Virus record (IMG/VR): IMGVR_UViG_3300032053_000111
Location: 1-52,062 of that record
Length of the DNA: 52,062 nt
Strand: one strand, 5' to 3'
Origin: a virus
The position numbers were made by a program, and so were the translations under genes. Shown in pieces: positions 1,399 through 40,798 of the stretch; position 1 is the stretch's first letter; each line of letters opens with the position of its first letter. The notes beneath the pieces were generated by a model that did not search any database, was not told the origin of the DNA, and saw only the letters and a list, made by a program, of their open reading frames with translations.

Positions 1399-1884
1399 TT
1401 ATAAATCCTTTAGTTCCTGGTAGACGTGGTAGAAGAATGACTCGACATCACTAGTCTTCGAACGGAAATTCTTACCTACAAACAGAATCGGAATCCTATA
1501 CTTCATCACTATCTGGCACAAAAGCCAATATAGCGTTTGCTTGGTCATCTCGGACTTACCAATATGTCTGAGAGCATCTGCAATGTTATCAGCAGAGTCT
1601 TCAACTACTATAATTGCAGTCCTTACTTCAGATAGTCTTTGAAGAACCTGCTTGAACCATTTCCTGTTTCTACCGGATACATCAGTAAGTAGTTCATTGA
1701 TACTGGCTTTCCTTTCAATGACAAACACATCTTCGAAACCCTCGAATGAGTAATCTCCAACCTCAAGTTTATTAGTCTTAGTCTTGAAATCGGAGAACTT
1801 CCACGGTTTCTGTTCGCGCGTGTCTATTATAATGACCGGTTTCAAACCGCGATTTTTATGTCGTTTTGGCAAGAATGTTCTCAA
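1399..1884 (-). CDS. ERCC4-type nuclease (XPF/MUS81-like)
   Basis: The core has the ERCC4 nuclease signature: DTREQKPW near residues 21-28, GDYSF near 43-47 and the catalytic ERKA near 57-60, followed by a compact alpha/beta remainder. The family cuts branched DNA. I chose the TTG at 1884 because GGGAGGAG lies nine bases upstream; this gives 161 residues and a 29-base overlap with the 3' end of the polymerase gene. The open frame extends to a TTG at 1956, but that adds residues unlike the family. The gene lies directly downstream of the DNA polymerase, so a role in recombination or repair intermediates is likely. It may be the phage's only branch-cutting nuclease, because the endonuclease VII gene at 41 kb is broken. 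Confidence 0.83.
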   Translation of the reverse strand: MRTFLPKRHKNRGLKPVIIIDTREQKPWKFSDFKTKTNKLEVGDYSFEGFEDVFVIERKASINELLTDVSGRNRKWFKQVLQRLSEVRTAIIVVEDSADNIADALRHIGKSEMTKQTLYWLLCQIVMKYRIPILFVGKNFRSKTSDVESFFYHVYQELKDL

Positions 1885-3811
1885 AGGATTTCTTCTCCTC
1901 CCAATTTGTATCAGACCATTTACAATCAACCAAAAATTTGAATCTATGTTTAGCAAGTTGTAGTATATTCTCCATATAATCTTTCAGATGAAGAACAAAA
2001 TCAACATTCTCCTCGGGATGTGTTGATTTAATTTCTATTAGGAACTCGTCGTGGATAGGAACGAGTATATATGCTGGTCTCTCGAAATCTTCTATATACT
2101 CATCTATCTTGATGAAGGCAATCTTGGTTACTTGTGCACAACCACCCTGAATAAGCGAATTTACCGCTTTATATGCTTGCTTGAAATCCATATGATAACG
2201 TTTGCCAAACCAATCTTCCACATATCCATCATCTTTCAATTGTAGAGCACATTTCTCCTGGCATTCACCAATGAGTGGAAATTCATTCATATACATGTCA
2301 TGGAATTTTACAGCTTTAGTTTCGGTTGTCTTGAGTGCTTGAGCAAGACCACCAATACCCATACCATAAATGATTCCAAAATTGATGGACTTGATTTTGC
2401 TTCTTTCTGCTGAAAATGTCTTATGGTCCTCGGGCACACCAGTAATGAGTGTGGTCATATATGAATGTAAGTCTTCGCCGTTCGCATAGGCTTTCAAAAT
2501 TCTCTTATCACCAGCAAGAAGTCCGAATAATGCCATTTCCATCTGCTTATAATCAAGGAAGAACATGAGAAATCCTTTTCGCACACGGAAACAAGCACGA
2601 ATCGGATTATGTCCTACTGCACCAGTACTCGGACGAGGAATATCTTGCAGATTGGGGTCACGACCTGCCATTCGACTGGTTCGTGTATCAGACGGATTTA
2701 TCGTGTAGTATATGATACCATTACTGTGCAATGCTCTAATACGTAATGGTCTCAGATATGAGCCAACAGTATTAGACAATGATCGGTATAATAGAACCGA
2801 GTCAGTGAATTTCTTGATTTGTTTATCTTCAGTAGTCTCAGATAGTTTCTCAAGCACAATCTTGCCAGTAGTAAGTGAACCTTTCTTCATGAGAGATTCT
2901 TCAGGTACACCCATCTTAAGTAAACATGCAAGAGTCTTCTTTGCAGTTGGCTTGAATTCGGCTCCTACCATTCTACTTAGACGATGCATAGTCTTAGCAA
3001 TTTCTATGTTGCACCTGGTGGTTTCGGCCAATGCCATCTTTGTATCAAACAACATGCCACGAGTTTCCATCCTTGAAACAATCTCCGTAATTCTACGTTC
3101 TCGTTCATACAATTCTGGGTAAATTGTATCTATTTCCGGTCGCAACCTAACATTTAAGATGTAGCAAATGAATACATCCTGCATGGCATACTTGGATATA
3201 ATATCATCAGGTATGAATGAATAGTTGACATATTCTTTTGGGTACCCTGCTTTTGTATATGTCCTCTTAAGCCTTGTCAACACAACCTGAAGATCAGACT
3301 TCCAGCCAGACAACTCCGGACAAATAACTTCACATAAGTCATCCAAACTGAATTTCTTCATCCTGTCCCAGTAGATTCTTGACATTGTCAATGTGCAATT
3401 GATAGTAGGAGCAAATCGAATACCGTTGGTAGTCAATGTGCGCATATCAAACTTGGAGTTATGTGCAACCTTGTGCCCTTTAACCCCGAGAATTCCTACT
3501 ATTTCGTCATACATGTCAGTACCGAGTCTACCCCAGAACAACGCAATCTTATCTTCATATGGAATAGCAAGAGATAAACCAACTATCGCTGGATTGTTAA
3601 CTTTGATGTCTGTGTTGTTACCGATATGCAGGTAAGTCGGTATACCGAGAGTAAGACCAGTAGTTTCCGAATCGAATCCCATGGCTTGATATATAGGATC
3701 AGAATTGTGGTTAGTCCAGTGTTGGAATATCTTGTGTTGTTCAGCGCAAGACTTCTTGAATTTCACTGACCCATTATAGAGGTCAAGAATCATCTTACTA
3801 GAATCAATCAT
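1856..3811 (-). CDS. polA: Family A DNA polymerase with 3'-5' exonuclease
   Basis: The 651-residue protein has an N-terminal DnaQ-like proofreading domain: Exo I FDSETTGL (46-53), Exo II HNSKFD (117-122) and Exo III with D212. The polymerase domain follows, with motif A FFLDYKQMEMALFG (417-430), motif B R470-K474-F478-Y482 and motif C PIHDEF (585-590). All expected catalytic acids are present. The residue equivalent to E. coli Pol I position 762 is phenylalanine (F478); in surveys of phage polymerases, Phe or Tyr here is associated with virulent phages and Leu with temperate ones. No 5'-3' exonuclease domain is present. The start ATG overlaps the methyltransferase stop (ATGA). Confidence 0.96.
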   Translation of the reverse strand: MIDSSKMILDLYNGSVKFKKSCAEQHKIFQHWTNHNSDPIYQAMGFDSETTGLTLGIPTYLHIGNNTDIKVNNPAIVGLSLAIPYEDKIALFWGRLGTDMYDEIVGILGVKGHKVAHNSKFDMRTLTTNGIRFAPTINCTLTMSRIYWDRMKKFSLDDLCEVICPELSGWKSDLQVVLTRLKRTYTKAGYPKEYVNYSFIPDDIISKYAMQDVFICYILNVRLRPEIDTIYPELYERERRITEIVSRMETRGMLFDTKMALAETTRCNIEIAKTMHRLSRMVGAEFKPTAKKTLACLLKMGVPEESLMKKGSLTTGKIVLEKLSETTEDKQIKKFTDSVLLYRSLSNTVGSYLRPLRIRALHSNGIIYYTINPSDTRTSRMAGRDPNLQDIPRPSTGAVGHNPIRACFRVRKGFLMFFLDYKQMEMALFGLLAGDKRILKAYANGEDLHSYMTTLITGVPEDHKTFSAERSKIKSINFGIIYGMGIGGLAQALKTTETKAVKFHDMYMNEFPLIGECQEKCALQLKDDGYVEDWFGKRYHMDFKQAYKAVNSLIQGGCAQVTKIAFIKIDEYIEDFERPAYILVPIHDEFLIEIKSTHPEENVDFVLHLKDYMENILQLAKHRFKFLVDCKWSDTNWEEKKSFENILAKTT

Positions 3812-4647
3812 CTTGCAGGTCCAAACTTGTACATCACATGTTGTAAACTTACTTTGGTTATTGTGAATTTTCTATTACCAATCTTAGCAAGTTCTCTCAA
3901 AGCATACACAGACGGTTCTGACCAATCATGTGTATGTTGACTCAAATGGTAAGCAAGAGTCAAACCCTGATTGGAGTCCGGGTCGTAATCTACAATCATA
4001 ACCCCCTTCACACGGTATTTCGGGTTAAGAATAGTAGTCAGTATGCTTTTGAAAGCAGAGAAACAATGAAGTGAATTACCAAAGAAGACAACATCTGGAA
4101 AATAAATATCCAGTATTTGTTCAATATTGGTAGTTGTAACTGTCCACTGTGTAGTCTCTGGGATAGGAGATTTATCTATACCAACATAATCAAATAGTGG
4201 AACTTTCTTATTTGCTTCTTTGAAAATGCTCTTGAAAGGCATCAATCCACAACCAATATCCAAGATAGTTATTTTACCTGGATAGGAAACTTTGTGATAG
4301 AATGCCCCCGTTTTCCATTTTAGTAGGCTCACCTGTTCAGCCATGGCACCAAGATAGTGTTCCATTCTATTCTCGGTTACCCAGTCAGGAACACGACAAT
4401 TACCACGTTGAGAATAGAAGTAATGAGCCATGTCAAAGTAGGTATACTCAATGAGATTATGCATGTCAACAAGCAAAGTCTTCAAAGATATACCAAAATA
4501 TCGACACAAGTTATCTTTGGTATCATTGACTACAGATGAATCATCATTAGATATGATTGCTTGGTGTAAGAAGCAAACCATCTTATAATAAGAAACCATG
4601 TCATAGAAACGGTGTTCATACTTGGATCGTCTGTTGATACCGAACAT
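3808..4647 (-). CDS. Class I SAM-dependent methyltransferase
   Basis: A 279-residue protein. Its C-terminal half is a Rossmann methyltransferase: glycine-rich motif I LDIGCG (129-134), an acidic second-strand motif YVGIDKS near 155-161, and a later strand-helix series. The first 120 residues are helical and unassigned. No DPPY, NPPF or PCQ DNA-methylase motif is visible, so the target base or atom is unknown. A GAGGAGA ribosome binding site precedes the ATG. It lies between a radical SAM gene and the DNA polymerase in one tight operon, which suggests nucleic acid modification, but this is inference. Confidence 0.78.
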   Translation of the reverse strand: MFGINRRSKYEHRFYDMVSYYKMVCFLHQAIISNDDSSVVNDTKDNLCRYFGISLKTLLVDMHNLIEYTYFDMAHYFYSQRGNCRVPDWVTENRMEHYLGAMAEQVSLLKWKTGAFYHKVSYPGKITILDIGCGLMPFKSIFKEANKKVPLFDYVGIDKSPIPETTQWTVTTTNIEQILDIYFPDVVFFGNSLHCFSAFKSILTTILNPKYRVKGVMIVDYDPDSNQGLTLAYHLSQHTHDWSEPSVYALRELAKIGNRKFTITKVSLQHVMYKFGPAR

Positions 4648-4659
4648 CTGTTGTCTCCT

Positions 4660-5781
4660 CTAAAAGTATACGTTCGTCTGTTTACAGTCAAGAACTGTAT
4701 CTTTATCTTGCTGCGACAAACCGTAGAGTCCCTGGGTTGTAATTAAGAAGTCTCTAAAGCTTGTAGTTACGTATGACATGCTTCTCCAGTAATAACCGAA
4801 TGCCTTGATTAACGGTAAACTCCAGTATTTACCGATAAAATGCACATCTCTGCATATGGTATCAAGTGGTACAAAGTGTTGAGGAAAAGGTCTAATTCCA
4901 AGTTTAACACAGGTTGCAGCCCTGTAGAATGCTTCATCAAACGTATCATGGAAATTGAAGATGCAATATGACATTATGCTTGATGGCCGCACACCAGCAT
5001 CAATCAACATTTGAATTGCTTTAGTGAATACCTCTTTTTCTGATAATCTGTCGAACGACAGTCTCAAACCTTCTTTATAGAATGAAACCCTTGCAAGGGC
5101 TACACAAACTTTCGGTGTTACATGCTTTGGATCTAACCCGTTATCTATTATTACTTGCTTACCAAGTTCACATAGATAATTGGCAACATTACAAACATGC
5201 TCGGTCGGAAACGATGATATGTTGTTATCACTAATCATTGCATACTGTTTGCTTGCTACAATATGTTCTCGCCAATTACTCACAATATGCCTATTTGGTT
5301 CTAGTCTCCATACACCACAATAGGCACATTTGTTAGGACAACCACGTGAGGTAAATGTAAACGAGAACTCATTCCATGGGCTTGCTATTTCCCAGTCTAC
5401 ATGTTGATAGTCAGGTACACATTGATCGAGTACATCAGACGTACCAACAAATACATTGATACCCTCTGGAAACATCTCAGGTATGAGAGAAGCACAGATA
5501 CCACCGACAATAATTGGTACATGCTGATCATATGACCTGACCTCACTGATGGCAAGTAGAACTTGAGGTAGATCATAGGTAAACAAAGAAGAAATACAAA
5601 CAAGATCACATGGGTATGATTTATAATACCTATGATATACAAACTGTTTACCGCTGATATATGTAGCAATCTTGGCCAAACCGAGCGGTAGATATTTACG
5701 GCTGTAGTTCGGTTCAAGCAAAAGCACAGATTTTGCTCCATCTAACATCCGAAGCATCTGTTGCTCATTTATCGTTGGCAA
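4660..5781 (-). CDS. Radical SAM protein with B12-binding-like N-terminal domain
   Basis: The 373-residue protein carries the radical SAM cluster motif C148-x3-C152-x2-C155 in TSRGCPNKCAYCGVW. The preceding 130 residues have the layout of a cobalamin-binding Rossmann domain (LLEPN, LPLGLAKIA, VGG), as in B12-dependent radical SAM enzymes; the classical DxHxxG histidine motif is not evident. Such enzymes methylate or rearrange unreactive carbons. The start is the TTG at 5781 with GGAG six bases upstream, and it overlaps the glycosylase-like gene by 17 bases. Its neighbours are a methyltransferase, a UDG-like protein and a U32 protein, all of possible use in base modification. The substrate is unknown. 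Confidence 0.85.
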   Translation of the reverse strand: MPTINEQQMLRMLDGAKSVLLLEPNYSRKYLPLGLAKIATYISGKQFVYHRYYKSYPCDLVCISSLFTYDLPQVLLAISEVRSYDQHVPIIVGGICASLIPEMFPEGINVFVGTSDVLDQCVPDYQHVDWEIASPWNEFSFTFTSRGCPNKCAYCGVWRLEPNRHIVSNWREHIVASKQYAMISDNNISSFPTEHVCNVANYLCELGKQVIIDNGLDPKHVTPKVCVALARVSFYKEGLRLSFDRLSEKEVFTKAIQMLIDAGVRPSSIMSYCIFNFHDTFDEAFYRAATCVKLGIRPFPQHFVPLDTICRDVHFIGKYWSLPLIKAFGYYWRSMSYVTTSFRDFLITTQGLYGLSQQDKDTVLDCKQTNVYF

Positions 5782-6424
5782 CTGGTACTCCTTTGAATTT
5801 GTCCATCAATATGCTGAGCTTGATGACCCAATCTTTCGAACCTATCAAACTTGAATGGAGGAAGCTGGCTGGATGTTTAACCGAATGTAGTTTGCAATCT
5901 AATCCTTTCATGACATCATATTTCACAACAATATCCCTTGGTGTTGTACCGAGGGTTACCACCAGTGCAGGTTTTATTATCTGTAGCTCTTGAATCAGAA
6001 AATGAATACAGTGTCGAATCTCCTCTGGTGTAGGCTGTCGATTCTTATCCGGATGACAGTGGATAATGTTTGATATGAATATATTCTCCCTTGTCAACCC
6101 ACTCAGTCGTAAGGCGGCATCAAGCATATAGCCAGAACCACCAGAGAATGGAATCTGTGTTGCCATACATGGTATACCAGGAGATATACCTATGAAGAAG
6201 ATTCTGGCATTCAATGTACCAAATCCAATGACAGATTCAGTGAACGCTTTGATATTCAGACCTTTACAACATTCACAGTTTCTTATCCGTTTATTGACCA
6301 CCTTCATCAAACATGATTTCTTGTATAGTTCCTGTTCATATTCAAAACAGGTCATATACAATGACTCATGTTCAAAATCCATCATCCGTGATAAGGCAAC
6401 AACTTTGTCGTGTCTGATTGACAT
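5765..6424 (-). CDS. Family 4 uracil-DNA-glycosylase-like iron-sulfur protein
   Basis: A 219-residue protein of the UDG superfamily. It has a motif 1 equivalent IFFIGISPG (75-83), the segment NIIHCHPDKNRQP (119-131) and a HPAS motif (184-187). Cysteines at 50/53, 123 and 139 match the four cluster ligands of family 4 enzymes, including the 16-residue spacing of the last pair. The acidic residues that usually follow PG in motif 1 (PGxxED) are absent; PGIPCMATQ is seen instead. Glycosylase activity is therefore uncertain, and a substrate-recognition or altered-chemistry role is possible. It sits between the DUF6378-like gene and the radical SAM gene. Confidence 0.8.
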   Translation of the reverse strand: MSIRHDKVVALSRMMDFEHESLYMTCFEYEQELYKKSCLMKVVNKRIRNCECCKGLNIKAFTESVIGFGTLNARIFFIGISPGIPCMATQIPFSGGSGYMLDAALRLSGLTRENIFISNIIHCHPDKNRQPTPEEIRHCIHFLIQELQIIKPALVVTLGTTPRDIVVKYDVMKGLDCKLHSVKHPASFLHSSLIGSKDWVIKLSILMDKFKGVPVANDK

Positions 6425-7063
6425 CTATTCTACAGTCTGAAAAGTGGACATATCTGGATATCGTCTTATCACAGGACAATCCTTCTGGTTACAATTACCT
6501 TCACGCATGGCATTGTTCCGCGGATGATTACAGCATGATGATGAAATGTCAAACACAGTGTGACTATCTCTTTCTTCACCTTTCCATGAAAAGAATGAAC
6601 AAAGTGGGGCAGAAGAAGTTTTAGGTATACTTTGTGTATTCATCGATTGTACACCTACAGATGGTACATGGTTTGTTTCTGTAACTTTTACCAGATTTTG
6701 TCTTTCTCTTTCTGTTAAAGCCATATAGACCATACCATCCAAAGCACTGTCTTTGATAGTCTTTGTTAACCTATCAACCTCCATGGGGTCATCCTGGAAA
6801 ATCTCAAGTAGTTCAAATATGTTGCCATATCGTGCCATCTTCATCACGGTAAAAATCATAGTTATATCGAATGCAGTTAATTCCTTACGCAGGATGATAG
6901 ATGAAATCATAGCAGTATCTTTGAATACATTCTGACTACTTCTTTCATATACTGCTCTTCTTGCCCGGTGTGTATTAAGTGCATCTTCCAACATACCTTT
7001 TACTACTTCGTTCGGGTCATTACCATGTTTGAGTTTGTCCTGATTGGTATTATTGTTGTCCAT
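6425..7063 (-). CDS. DUF6378-like protein with cysteine-rich tail
   Basis: I chose the ATG at 7063, seven bases behind AAGGA and inside the end of the U32 gene, giving 212 residues. Residues about 20-100 resemble the DUF6378 domain of phage proteins: an AVYERSSQNVFKD stretch followed by an LTAFDITMIFTVMKMARYG helix. The C-terminal 60 residues contain Cys and His (SCCNHPRNN, GNCNQKDCPV) and could bind zinc. The function is unknown. The tight overlaps with the U32 and UDG-like genes indicate translational coupling and a shared pathway. Confidence 0.6.
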   Translation of the reverse strand: MDNNNTNQDKLKHGNDPNEVVKGMLEDALNTHRARRAVYERSSQNVFKDTAMISSIILRKELTAFDITMIFTVMKMARYGNIFELLEIFQDDPMEVDRLTKTIKDSALDGMVYMALTERERQNLVKVTETNHVPSVGVQSMNTQSIPKTSSAPLCSFFSWKGEERDSHTVFDISSSCCNHPRNNAMREGNCNQKDCPVIRRYPDMSTFQTVE

Positions 7064-8156
7064 CTTTTTGTCCTTCAATAATTTGTTGATATAGACGAGT
7101 GCAGTGTTCACATGTATCAGAACACGCATCACTACTACAAGCAGGATTTAGGAAATATCTCTTATCAGCAAGAAACTCGATTGGGATATTCGGATATTTC
7201 TGAAGCATTTCCTTCTGAATTTGATTCTGTCCTTGATTTACATACGTAGCTTCGAGTTGACCCCACAATGCAAGCAGATTACCAGACCCCTTACCGGTGA
7301 TATACATCTGACCCACATTGCGAATGAATTCTGCTGGATGAGTTCTACCTGTAATCTTGAATCTTGTAATACCAGTCTTTTGGGTGTAAGCCACAATCCA
7401 ATCAGGCAGAATAAACTTGGCTTTCAACCATGCTTCAGGGTGTTCAAATCGTGATGGTCTACAAACATCCATCGGATTCCATGTTTGATCTGTACATTGG
7501 GCCAAGTAGCAAGATTGCCTATACAGCCCTTCACACTCAATACCGCCAATTGTACAGAATTCATTGACAAGAAGCTCAAGTGGTATAATTTCGTTTGCAC
7601 GAGCAAGCCATTCGGTGTCACGGTTTCTCCATAAGGCAGGACAAACCGAGATAACATTAGGCCAGTGTTTCTTTATCCACTTGAGATGTGCTATGGTGTG
7701 TACATTCATGATTGTACTAATTGTGACAGGTAGAGTAGGTTGTCTCACAACACGACCAAAATTGTTGGTGGATGATACCAGAAGATCCATTATTGCAGGA
7801 TGAGATACTATCAGAGAATCGAACATATATCTGTTATATGAGTTTTGTATCCAATTGACTACATCGGTGTAGTTTGAGGCACCATCTCTGAAGGCTGGCA
7901 CTAATGAGTTCATTGTCCATGTTATCTCAACATTTGCATCCCTGAGAAGTTCTATGCCATCCATATAATCAGACATAGTTACATCTACTTCACGTCTGCG
8001 AGGTCGAGTAGAACCAAATGGGTTTAATATACCAGGGGAACCATATACTCTGGCTATCCTGTTTGGATAACCATTATCCCTCTGAAAGGTCACCAGACCA
8101 ATTATTGCTTTTACGTGGTCAGAACTGAAGTTACAACCGATGTTTAGGTTTGACAC
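7050..8156 (-). CDS. Peptidase U32-family protein (TrhP/RlhA/UbiU-like)
   Basis: A 368-residue protein. The family signature is a cysteine cluster (C201, C208, C216, C221, C232) after VNEFC, then a helix and the segment FKITGRTHPAEFI, matching the FKIEGR motif of U32 proteins. Despite the peptidase name, characterised members carry an iron-sulfur cluster and hydroxylate substrates without oxygen: TrhP (tRNA uridine), RlhA (23S rRNA cytidine) and UbiU/UbiV (ubiquinone ring). Which family members share this exact cysteine set cannot be decided here. The start is GTG at 8156 behind TTGGAGA. It opens the run that contains UDG-like, radical SAM and methyltransferase genes. Confidence 0.72.
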   Translation of the reverse strand: MSNLNIGCNFSSDHVKAIIGLVTFQRDNGYPNRIARVYGSPGILNPFGSTRPRRREVDVTMSDYMDGIELLRDANVEITWTMNSLVPAFRDGASNYTDVVNWIQNSYNRYMFDSLIVSHPAIMDLLVSSTNNFGRVVRQPTLPVTISTIMNVHTIAHLKWIKKHWPNVISVCPALWRNRDTEWLARANEIIPLELLVNEFCTIGGIECEGLYRQSCYLAQCTDQTWNPMDVCRPSRFEHPEAWLKAKFILPDWIVAYTQKTGITRFKITGRTHPAEFIRNVGQMYITGKGSGNLLALWGQLEATYVNQGQNQIQKEMLQKYPNIPIEFLADKRYFLNPACSSDACSDTCEHCTRLYQQIIEGQKDGQQ

Positions 8157-8301
8157 TATAAGGGTCTCCAAAATTGAAATGACTTTGTTTTGCAGCCAAC
8201 ATCATTATTCCGAGAACGACGATAGTCCTATCTCTCGTCGAGAGTTTGGACTTCATCTTCCTGTCAGGATTATCGGGTATCTGGTTGTTCGATTCACTCA
8301 T
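8131..8301 (-). CDS. Small basic protein of unknown function
   Basis: A 56-residue product, rich in Lys and Arg near residues 14-25 (DRKMKSKLSTRDR), then a short hydrophobic stretch (TIVVLGIMML). The start is the ATG at 8301 because it forms an ATGA overlap with the stop of the upstream gene and AAAAGG precedes it. The open frame continues further upstream but lacks such signals. No family is recognised. Its 3' end overlaps the U32 gene start, so it belongs to that operon. Confidence 0.55.
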   Translation of the reverse strand: MSESNNQIPDNPDRKMKSKLSTRDRTIVVLGIMMLAAKQSHFNFGDPYSVKPKHRL

Positions 8302-8495
8302 GCTCGCCTTTTCATCGGAATCATCAAACCCTGTTTCCTGAAGTAATTCTTCCACAGTGCTATAGTCTTCATCGTTGCTCGAGACTTTGGAAACTTACTC
8401 TTGAGCAAGTTCATTACCAAATCATCCGATATTAAAGAGTCTTCATTGTATACCTCAAAAAGATAGCCAATTTCCGTTTTGAACTCAACATCCAT
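8298..8495 (-). CDS. Small protein, first gene of the enzyme operon
   Basis: About 65 residues from the ATG at 8495, preceded by AAGG at short spacing; a GTG at 8516 is an alternative. The C-terminal half (residues about 22-55) looks like a compact helical DNA-binding type segment ending in KNYFRKQG. No family is recognised. It is the promoter-proximal gene of the leftward operon that continues into the U32 gene and polymerase. Confidence 0.55.
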   Translation of the reverse strand: MDVEFKTEIGYLFEVYNEDSLISDDLVMNLLKSKFPKSRATMKTIALWKNYFRKQGLMIPMKRRA

Positions 8496-8519
8496 TAGCC
8501 TTAATCCATTAAACACGTT

Positions 8520-10324: not shown

Positions 10325-11851
10325 CTAACTCCTTGAATCATCTGGTTGGATACTTCGTTTATCTGCCTGTGTCAAACTTCCCGGTGTTAACTTTACCACT
10401 ACCGGATCATGCCCATCCCTCATTGCAAGTGTAATTGTTTTTGTATATGTTAGATCAGTTGATGCATCAACATGTTCAGATTCTGAATATATCACAGTAC
10501 CACCTACTTCTTCTACGGATAAATCCATGGATGAAATACCAGGGTCACGTGCATAAGAACCCCATAAAACAGAATCTACACCACCTATATTGAATCCAGA
10601 TTCTTTACTGGCAAGATTTACCACTACATCAAAATCGTCAGTAGCATAGTCCTCAACCCCTTCACGTCCAGCTATTCTAGCAATCGATACTGGGGCAGGT
10701 TTTGAGTTGTTACCAATAATAGTATAAGTAACAGGTGTCACATCTTCAACCTGCTGGACATCAGACCCGTAGAATGTCAAAACTTTGAAATACATGATTT
10801 TGCCAATATCTTCAACATTGTAGGTAAAGGCAAAATCAGGTATTAGTGTATGCCAAACTGTACCAACGCTATGACTAGATGGAATAGTATTAAATAGACC
10901 GCGTATGAAGCAAGACACATCGAAATTAATACCATTCTCTACTACTGTCTTGTATGCTACCACCTCACTGCCTATCTTCATAAGAGATAGATTGTTAAAA
11001 AATCGAAGATCGGAGCAAGATTCCAATGATAAGAAAGTTACATTCTGCGATACAGTCACAGCATCATCCGGTGAATATATCACTGATCTCTTACTGCCCA
11101 ATGTAGTAACAAGTTCACCATCGAGATTACAGTCCAATATACTCGATGTACAAACACCAGCAAGATTATAGGAAATATCGTCATAGGAGTAGTATATTAC
11201 AAACCCATTGAAATACTGATCCTGCGGACAAATATGAAAGTTTACTTCTTGTGCATTCCTGCCTTCAGTGAAATATACACTTGGTGATACAAGTGTAGGT
11301 TTGACATAACTCACATGTTTATTTACAGAATAAGCTTGATCTGGACTGAGATATAAAAACTGCTTATCACTTATAGCTTCAACACCGAGTCTACTACCAT
11401 TAACAGCTTCTACTATTTTAGAAATACGAACCCTATGTCTATAAATGCCAAAGCCATCAGACAAGTAACCAACTTGTCCAACTTTCAAAGCCATATTACG
11501 GTATGCCAAAGTGAAACTATAAGTAGAGAACCTATACATTGATTCTGCCAGAAGTCTATAGGCGGTTTTAGTAGCAAGTTCTGCAGAAGTGAAACCCCTT
11601 AAATCCATAGTCCTGTTTCGGACTATACCTGTTATTCTCTGATCAACTGCGTCATTCACAGTGACAAAAGAATACGAGTCTTTAGCACTATGATCAGTCC
11701 ACTTCACTATGATTCTGTTGAACGTATCCTTAGAATCACGTTTAGAGACAAGCACAGGTGGATTACCACCTTCAGAATAGAGATCATCTCTCTCTATGGA
11801 GAATTCCGTAACTTGATATTTCCAGACCCCAAACTGTAGTCCTATACTCAT
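10325..11851 (-). CDS. Tail tip/hub protein, C-terminal half
   Basis: A 508-residue protein. Its first residues (SIGLQFGVWKYQVTEFSI) read as a direct continuation of the preceding protein, whose end (DWLDYIMSHYFGYM) is the usual upstream context in single-chain tip proteins of the GTA/lambda J type. The rest shows beta-rich hub domains followed by fibronectin-like segments near residues 360-500. The start ATG overlaps the previous stop as TAATG, so the two halves are translationally coupled. The hub therefore appears to be encoded by two genes. It likely sits at the distal tail end. Confidence 0.7.
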   Translation of the reverse strand: MSIGLQFGVWKYQVTEFSIERDDLYSEGGNPPVLVSKRDSKDTFNRIIVKWTDHSAKDSYSFVTVNDAVDQRITGIVRNRTMDLRGFTSAELATKTAYRLLAESMYRFSTYSFTLAYRNMALKVGQVGYLSDGFGIYRHRVRISKIVEAVNGSRLGVEAISDKQFLYLSPDQAYSVNKHVSYVKPTLVSPSVYFTEGRNAQEVNFHICPQDQYFNGFVIYYSYDDISYNLAGVCTSSILDCNLDGELVTTLGSKRSVIYSPDDAVTVSQNVTFLSLESCSDLRFFNNLSLMKIGSEVVAYKTVVENGINFDVSCFIRGLFNTIPSSHSVGTVWHTLIPDFAFTYNVEDIGKIMYFKVLTFYGSDVQQVEDVTPVTYTIIGNNSKPAPVSIARIAGREGVEDYATDDFDVVVNLASKESGFNIGGVDSVLWGSYARDPGISSMDLSVEEVGGTVIYSESEHVDASTDLTYTKTITLAMRDGHDPVVVKLTPGSLTQADKRSIQPDDSRS

Positions 11852-40235: not shown

Positions 40236-40685
40236 TCAAAAATCGGGTAGTTTTTGTATCCACATTGCGATGGTTCGTAAAGATTTACCATCAGCAAACA
40301 TTGCAAGTATAGTACCATGACAGTTATAGGGAGTACACCAACACAAGAGGGTTCTACCTTTCAACCTCTTAGCCTTGCGTTGGAGTACCTTGTCATCCTT
40401 GAATCCAGGATGACCAGGTGTACCATGAAAGAACTTGGAGATGACTTGACGCCTGTTGCCATCCTTAAGACTTATCTTGTATGGATTACCAAACTCACTT
40501 GGTCGCCCAACAAATGTAGTCTTCAATCCTTTCGCATGACGGCGAGTATGTGCTACCGAAGTTGGCATCTTCTTCATGCTACCCTCCCTATCAATCTTGC
40601 CAGTGAAGTGTTGTTTATCACGTATCTTAGCAATACGGTCTAAACCGTCTGCAAAGTCACTCAGTGTAAATTCATCTTTTGTCAT
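40236..40685 (-). CDS. DUF4326 protein
   Basis: A 149-residue protein from the ATG at 40685. It has the DUF4326 layout: a KTTFVGRPSEFGNPYKI segment, a central helical region and GRTLLCWCTPYNCHGTILA near the end. The family is widely spread in phages and its chemistry is unknown. It is in the same operon as a broken NADAR gene. An inverted repeat about 110 bases upstream may regulate it. Confidence 0.82.
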   Translation of the reverse strand: MTKDEFTLSDFADGLDRIAKIRDKQHFTGKIDREGSMKKMPTSVAHTRRHAKGLKTTFVGRPSEFGNPYKISLKDGNRRQVISKFFHGTPGHPGFKDDKVLQRKAKRLKGRTLLCWCTPYNCHGTILAMFADGKSLRTIAMWIQKLPDF

Positions 40686-40798
40686 CTTCAAAATTCCAGA
40701 AATCAGAAATTATTCACTTTGAGTCTACTATAACAAAGGTTGAACTGATCGAACACAAAATTATTGTGGAACCGAGTCAAGTTTTCGTCCAATTTTTA

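Follow-up and report, generated by a model that had tools for sequence, protein, structure and literature searches.

A viral gene run with a U32-family gene as a candidate DNA base-modification cassette, possibly based on prephenate-dependent cytosine hydroxylation

INTRODUCTION

Phage DNA based on 5-hydroxycytosine is already known. RB69-type phages have DNA with arabinosylated 5-hydroxycytosine derived from 5-hydroxy-dCMP, which is made by an enzyme of the thymidylate synthase (TS) superfamily (PMC13390438). The U32 family includes RNA hydroxylases that require prephenate (PMC6599085; PMC11574389), among them TrhP and RlhA, which also need an essential Glu-Cys-Cys set (PMC6599085). Here we describe a U32-family gene in the IMG/VR virus record IMGVR_UViG_3300032053_000111. 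The window that we analyzed is the whole record of 52,062 bases, which may itself be incomplete. The original prediction, made from the letters of the window, was that the U32 gene may begin a new DNA modification pathway that opens with an O2-independent hydroxylation.

We consider it reasonably probable that the U32 gene and its neighbors form a viral DNA base-modification cassette, with the U32 protein performing or enabling prephenate-dependent hydroxylation of cytosine at C5. Gene content, homology, conserved order, and context were established directly; the reaction, the cofactor, and the modified base are predicted from them.

RESULTS

The genes for the U32 protein, a DUF6378-like protein, a uracil-DNA glycosylase (UDG)-like protein, a B12-type radical S-adenosylmethionine (SAM) protein, a class I SAM methyltransferase, and DNA polymerase A form an overlapping run on the minus strand. 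The U32, radical SAM, UDG-like, and methyltransferase genes had all been predicted to lie in one run beside the polymerase gene, and all were present (minus strand, 3808-8171); the DUF6378-like gene had been left out. The features, in order from U32, are as follows.

7050-8156, minus strand: U32-family protein, proposed prephenate-dependent pyrimidine C5 hydroxylase (phrog_5757, E 1.3e-35; alignments, HHalign, and AlphaFold model)
6425-7063, minus strand: DUF6378-like small protein (Pfam E 0.0013, below the cutoff; the mechanically called open reading frame [ORF] reaches 7132)
5765-6424, minus strand: family-4 UDG-like protein (Pfam E 2.9e-24; match to TmUDG, 1vk2, E 1.1e-28)
4660-5781, minus strand: B12-binding-type radical SAM protein, proposed tailoring enzyme (phrog_9298, E 4.7e-29; CxxxCxxC)
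3808-4647, minus strand: class I SAM methyltransferase, possibly an O-methyltransferase (weak Pfam match, E 0.07; homolog in the same slot of the sister locus L029; low-confidence fold match)
1856-3811, minus strand: DNA polymerase family A (Pfam E 2.2e-62; polymerase in the same slot of L029, 40% identical)

The polymerase gene comes next in the conserved run after the methyltransferase gene, with a 4-nt overlap. From the coordinates, the junctions in order from U32 are -14, 0, -17, +12, and -4 nt, the first of which presumes that the DUF6378-like gene begins with the ATG at 7063, a start chosen by reading the sequence. These short or overlapping junctions make translational coupling across the run, as originally proposed, plausible. 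The likelier start of U32 is the GTG at 8156, which has GGAG ahead of it; the mechanically called ORF opens at TTG 8171. A small protein is encoded just upstream of U32 (8298-8516) and resembles, by eye, one in the same place in L029 (1616-1921).

Pfam U32 scored the window protein under the cutoff (E 0.0012), while relatives passed at 5e-11, and HHalign aligned it to RlhA with an E value of 6e-5. The best PDB match of the AlphaFold model (pLDDT 75; pTM 0.79) was a solved U32 protein, 5d88 (E 3.7e-7; target TM 0.67). Because the remaining top structure matches were unrelated barrel enzymes, the model makes the fold class secure but not the chemistry. Eight Cys residues were common to the U32 proteins compared in smaller alignments; in a 16-row alignment, seven were in invariant columns and the eighth, C213, was gap-shifted. 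The subfamily conserves E199, C206/C213/C221/C237, and K272..G275-R276, with a spacing unlike that of RlhA. It also has an F-K-x-x-G-R motif, of which the K and GR are found in RlhA and TrhP as well; pairing of single residues with RlhA E161/C169/C176 was judged by eye. Tested for membership in the family, the protein showed the U32 fold and the conserved Glu, Cys cluster, and KxxGR motif. It differs from RlhA and TrhP in being shorter, in having an extra C-terminal four-Cys group, in its DNA context, and in that its sequence similarity to them is only remote; its context points to prephenate. The U32 protein is probably an Fe-S enzyme.

We then determined the distribution of this U32 subfamily. 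Homologs were found by tblastn in 218 of 50,697 phage records, and every record opened belonged to the Straboviridae. Within the collections scanned, only viruses had the subfamily, and most of these were T4-like phages (RB69 and Thanatos, for example). A scan of bacterial and archaeal genomes, in which the sensitivity of the pattern was limited, found no member. Single-sequence scans of viral contigs with the U32, radical SAM, and methyltransferase proteins gave no relatives, whereas alignment-based scans recovered U32 relatives. U32 was present mainly in phages with glycosylated 5-hydroxycytosine DNA. In contrast, T4, which has hydroxymethylcytosine, lacked U32 across its whole genome in a search that detected the RB69 and Thanatos copies. 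Since the subfamily lies in the DNA-modification clusters of 5-hydroxycytosine phages, it is very probably the DNA of the virus itself that the cassette modifies.

We opened ten U32 neighborhoods in isolated Straboviridae: SHSML-52-1, Thanatos-2, EcS1, Pm5461, Pectobacterium PM2, HMGUkp2, TG1, PSTRCR_127, CIP9, and RB69. A TS-like gene was no more than two genes from U32 in all ten. In nine it came after U32, with no more than two intervening genes; in Thanatos-2 it was upstream, separated by two genes (about 1.5 kb). In RB69, SHSML-52-1, EcS1, and relatives, U32 was within an arabinose/TS-like cluster. The window U32 protein belongs to the same subfamily as those of the RB69-type pathway (28-32% identity, eight Cys residues), and its gene, like theirs, is near a DNA polymerase gene. 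However, the window lacks a TS-like 5-hydroxy-dCMP (5-hodCMP) synthase, arabinose genes, and a glycosyltransferase, and has UDG-like, methyltransferase, and radical SAM genes and a family A polymerase.

A chorismate mutase-like gene was close to U32 in 7 of the 10 Straboviridae. Those of EcS1, Pm5461, and Thanatos-2 were identified with Pfam CM_2 (E 5e-12, 3e-12, and 8e-8 among the three), and those of PM2, TG1, PSTRCR_127, and CIP9 were recognized by alignment and tblastn; the PDB match was 1ybz (E 8e-8). Such genes, at L006:4393-4779, L005:4152-4496, and L004:9134-9391 for example, are mostly annotated as hypothetical. A small ORF after U32 in SHSML-52-1 and RB69 was also considered as a chorismate mutase gene, but it gave no match. 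Chorismate mutase-like genes occurred in 56 phage records, and in all 15 compared by eye (those with coordinates in both the U32 and the chorismate mutase listings) they were within about 1.3 kb of U32. The carriers are related phages, so this proximity represents few independent events. The product of chorismate mutase is prephenate, the metabolite needed by known U32 hydroxylases.

Environmental viral contigs provided further U32 contexts, as follows.

L027: ribonucleotide reductase, dCMP deaminase, TS-like protein, U32, 350-amino-acid protein, dNMP-kinase-like protein, DnaE
L028: PolB, epimerase, UDG, 423-amino-acid protein related to the L032 glycosyltransferase, kinase-like protein, U32, DAHP synthase
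L029: family-2 glycosyltransferase (E 1.5e-12), second possible glycosyltransferase (no Pfam match), U32, DUF6378-like protein, UDG, methyltransferase, PolA, ERCC4-type nuclease
L030 to L032 (near-identical): ribonucleotide reductase, methyltransferase, TS-like protein, U32, kinase-like 195-amino-acid protein, glycosyltransferase (Pfam match just below the cutoff), UDG, DnaE; the ribonucleotide reductase, kinase-like protein, and DnaE were read by eye

In the U32 tree, the window protein grouped with that of L029, and L027 grouped with L032. The DAHP synthase gene of L028 (9384-10130; two ambiguous residues in the contig) directly follows U32; its product matched 1zco (E 1.4e-48), and KDO8P synthase (E 2e-11) was ruled out. 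In L032, as judged by eye, an intein-like insertion that contains a nuclease-like ORF seems to interrupt the ribonucleotide reductase gene (4439-7924). Homologs confined to RNA-modification contexts would have counted against the original prediction; every U32 context seen was one of DNA replication or nucleotide metabolism.

A serious possibility, though short of a probable one, is that U32 is accessory: the TS-superfamily 5-hodCMP synthase would make 5-hydroxy-dCMP, while U32 and chorismate mutase would supply or activate the oxidant. Such a synthase is named in the literature (PMC13390438), and TS-like genes are near U32 not only in the ten Straboviridae but also in L027 and L030 to L032. 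Against this, no TS-like gene was detected in the U32 cassettes of the window, L028, or L029 with a model that detects those of L027, L030, and L032 and T4 gp42, an absence to be read knowing that L028 and L029 are short contigs and that the window may be incomplete. Under an accessory role for U32, the TS-like partner of the window virus would be host-encoded, would have been lost, or would lie in genome sequence absent from the record.

The closest sister locus is L029, whose U32 protein is 45% identical to that of the window. The order U32-DUF6378-UDG-methyltransferase-PolA is shared by the two at 23-45% protein identity; the DUF6378-like protein of L029, in the same position, was below the Pfam cutoff (E 3.5e-5). 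The L029 contig ends (about 11540-11686) in a long poly-Glu-encoding run, possibly an assembly artifact. No radical SAM gene is present between UDG and methyltransferase in L029. Because the run order without radical SAM recurs there, the arrangement is not due to chance. It is unlikely that these are ordinary replication-module genes with no joint pathway, adjacent only through modular phage evolution. The lack of radical SAM in the sister locus, the low conservation of the methyltransferase there (just 22-23%), and the occurrence of UDG genes in other phages fit such a view, but the order is held between two contigs at 23-45% protein identity, and other lineages, too, have U32 and UDG genes in proximity.

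The UDG-like protein of the window matched the NCBIfam family-4 model with an E value of 4.5e-29, under that model's cutoff. Aligned, the four U32-associated UDGs resemble family-4 enzymes in sequence and keep the Fe-S-type Cys residues, the N motif, and the HP motif. They differ in motif A, where the acid is replaced in all four: by I in the window (GISPG versus GEGPG), Q in L029, R in L032, and Q in L028. The window protein lacks this acid and may not be an ordinary uracil glycosylase.

The radical SAM protein has CxxxCxxC and a B12-binding-like N terminus (Pfam E 1.2e-5, below the cutoff) and is 28.7% identical to a Marinitoga virus protein. Related proteins occur in L024, L025, and L026, which come from a Bacteroides phage and from Methanomassiliicoccales viruses; the annotation shown for them names no U32 gene. 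Its gene had been predicted to be part of the pathway; its absence from the sister cassette makes it look like an add-on.

The methyltransferase was the weakest call of the run, with class I motifs read by eye. Its structural model, examined for a class I SAM fold with an N-terminal helical domain, was of low confidence (pLDDT 54) and matched O-methyltransferases with E values of about 1e-4 and TM of about 0.3, so that it is possibly an O-methyltransferase. A PDB sequence search with this protein and the radical SAM protein gave nothing useful. The tRNA pathway of TrhP, TrmR, and CmoB, which leads through 5-hydroxyuridine (ho5U) to 5-methoxyuridine (mo5U) or uridine 5-oxyacetic acid (cmo5U), follows a similar logic: the base is hydroxylated, and the oxygen so introduced is then alkylated in a SAM-dependent step. 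However, the window methyltransferase has no visible sequence match to CmoB or TrmR, and its target would be DNA.

It is very unlikely that U32, like TrhP or RlhA, modifies tRNA or rRNA of the host or the phage in the course of infection, with unrelated neighbors. The characterized nucleic-acid U32 hydroxylases do work on RNA (PMC6599085, PMC11574389), and SAM methyltransferases are known to methylate ho5U on tRNA. Yet the 52-kb window has no tRNA gene, U32 is in DNA replication and nucleotide-modification clusters in every virus examined, and it is present in 5-hydroxycytosine phages and not in T4; we rejected the tRNA-modification reading on this genomic context. It is scarcely credible that the prephenate-supply genes serve CmoA-type carboxymethylation through carboxy-SAM (Cx-SAM), as in phage S-B43, where CmoA and CmoX modify DNA with prephenate-derived Cx-SAM (PMC12783734), since a CmoA-like protein was named in none of the neighborhoods scanned and RB69-type DNA has hydroxy-, not carboxymethyl-, cytosine.

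Elsewhere in the window, positions 40236-40691 encode a DUF4326/phrog_464 protein (E 2.8e-16).

DISCUSSION

From the family and context of U32, we propose a cassette in which U32 would hydroxylate C5 of cytosine, or less likely of uracil, as a nucleotide or in DNA. Prephenate would be the required metabolite and probable oxygen donor, as it is with the bacterial enzymes RlhA and TrhP, which hydroxylate RNA bases without oxygen. Some related viruses encode a chorismate mutase or a DAHP synthase of their own, which may supply it; the window virus would rely on its host. The new 5-hydroxyl would then be masked. RB69-like phages add arabinose, and the sister locus has its family-2 glycosyltransferase; in the window virus, the methyltransferase, perhaps acting on oxygen, and the radical SAM enzyme may act instead or in addition. 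5-Hydroxycytosine deaminates to 5-hydroxyuracil, which some UDG-superfamily enzymes remove. The UDG-like protein probably patrols the modified DNA, for example by binding or removing 5-hydroxyuracil that arises in this way.

Several observations weigh against this proposal. The window record lacks a chorismate mutase gene and, in contrast to most relatives, a TS-like gene. Nor does a chorismate mutase gene adjoin U32 in RB69, SHSML-52-1, or Klebsiella HMGUkp2. Many phages with no known U32 also encode UDGs, family-4-like ones among them, so the UDG-U32 association is suggestive only. Both the methyltransferase and the radical SAM protein are weakly assigned, and the substrate of neither is known. 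Finally, U32 may only assist, since 5-hydroxy-dCMP is credited to a TS-superfamily enzyme (PMC13390438).

A bolder version of the cassette, which we regard as rather unlikely, is a TS-independent route. Using prephenate from the host and no oxygen, U32 would by itself make 5-hydroxycytosine in DNA or dNMP; O-methylation and B12 radical SAM chemistry would build this up to an undescribed base, and a repurposed UDG fold would serve as reader or eraser.

The idea of a DNA modification pathway opening with a U32-type, O2-independent hydroxylation has gained strong comparative support from the RB69-like cluster, the absence of U32 from T4, and the chorismate mutase and DAHP synthase genes. The claim of novelty fared less well: 5-hydroxycytosine-derived phage DNA being known, the first step is probably not new. 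That no known hypermodification gene is present holds for the window record, where no glycosyltransferase was found among the proteins scanned, but not for the sister locus. No paper in our literature search connected U32 or chorismate mutase with modified phage DNA; the two reports closest to the subject were outside its coverage, so priority is uncertain.

If the proposal is correct, the reach of the U32 "peptidase" family grows from RNA and ubiquinone to DNA, and its association with chorismate mutase and DAHP synthase genes offers a testable answer to the oxygen source of phage 5-hydroxycytosine. Environmental phages would carry variants of this chemistry without a TS-like enzyme, and phages of anaerobes could hydroxylate their own DNA by a route that needs no O2.

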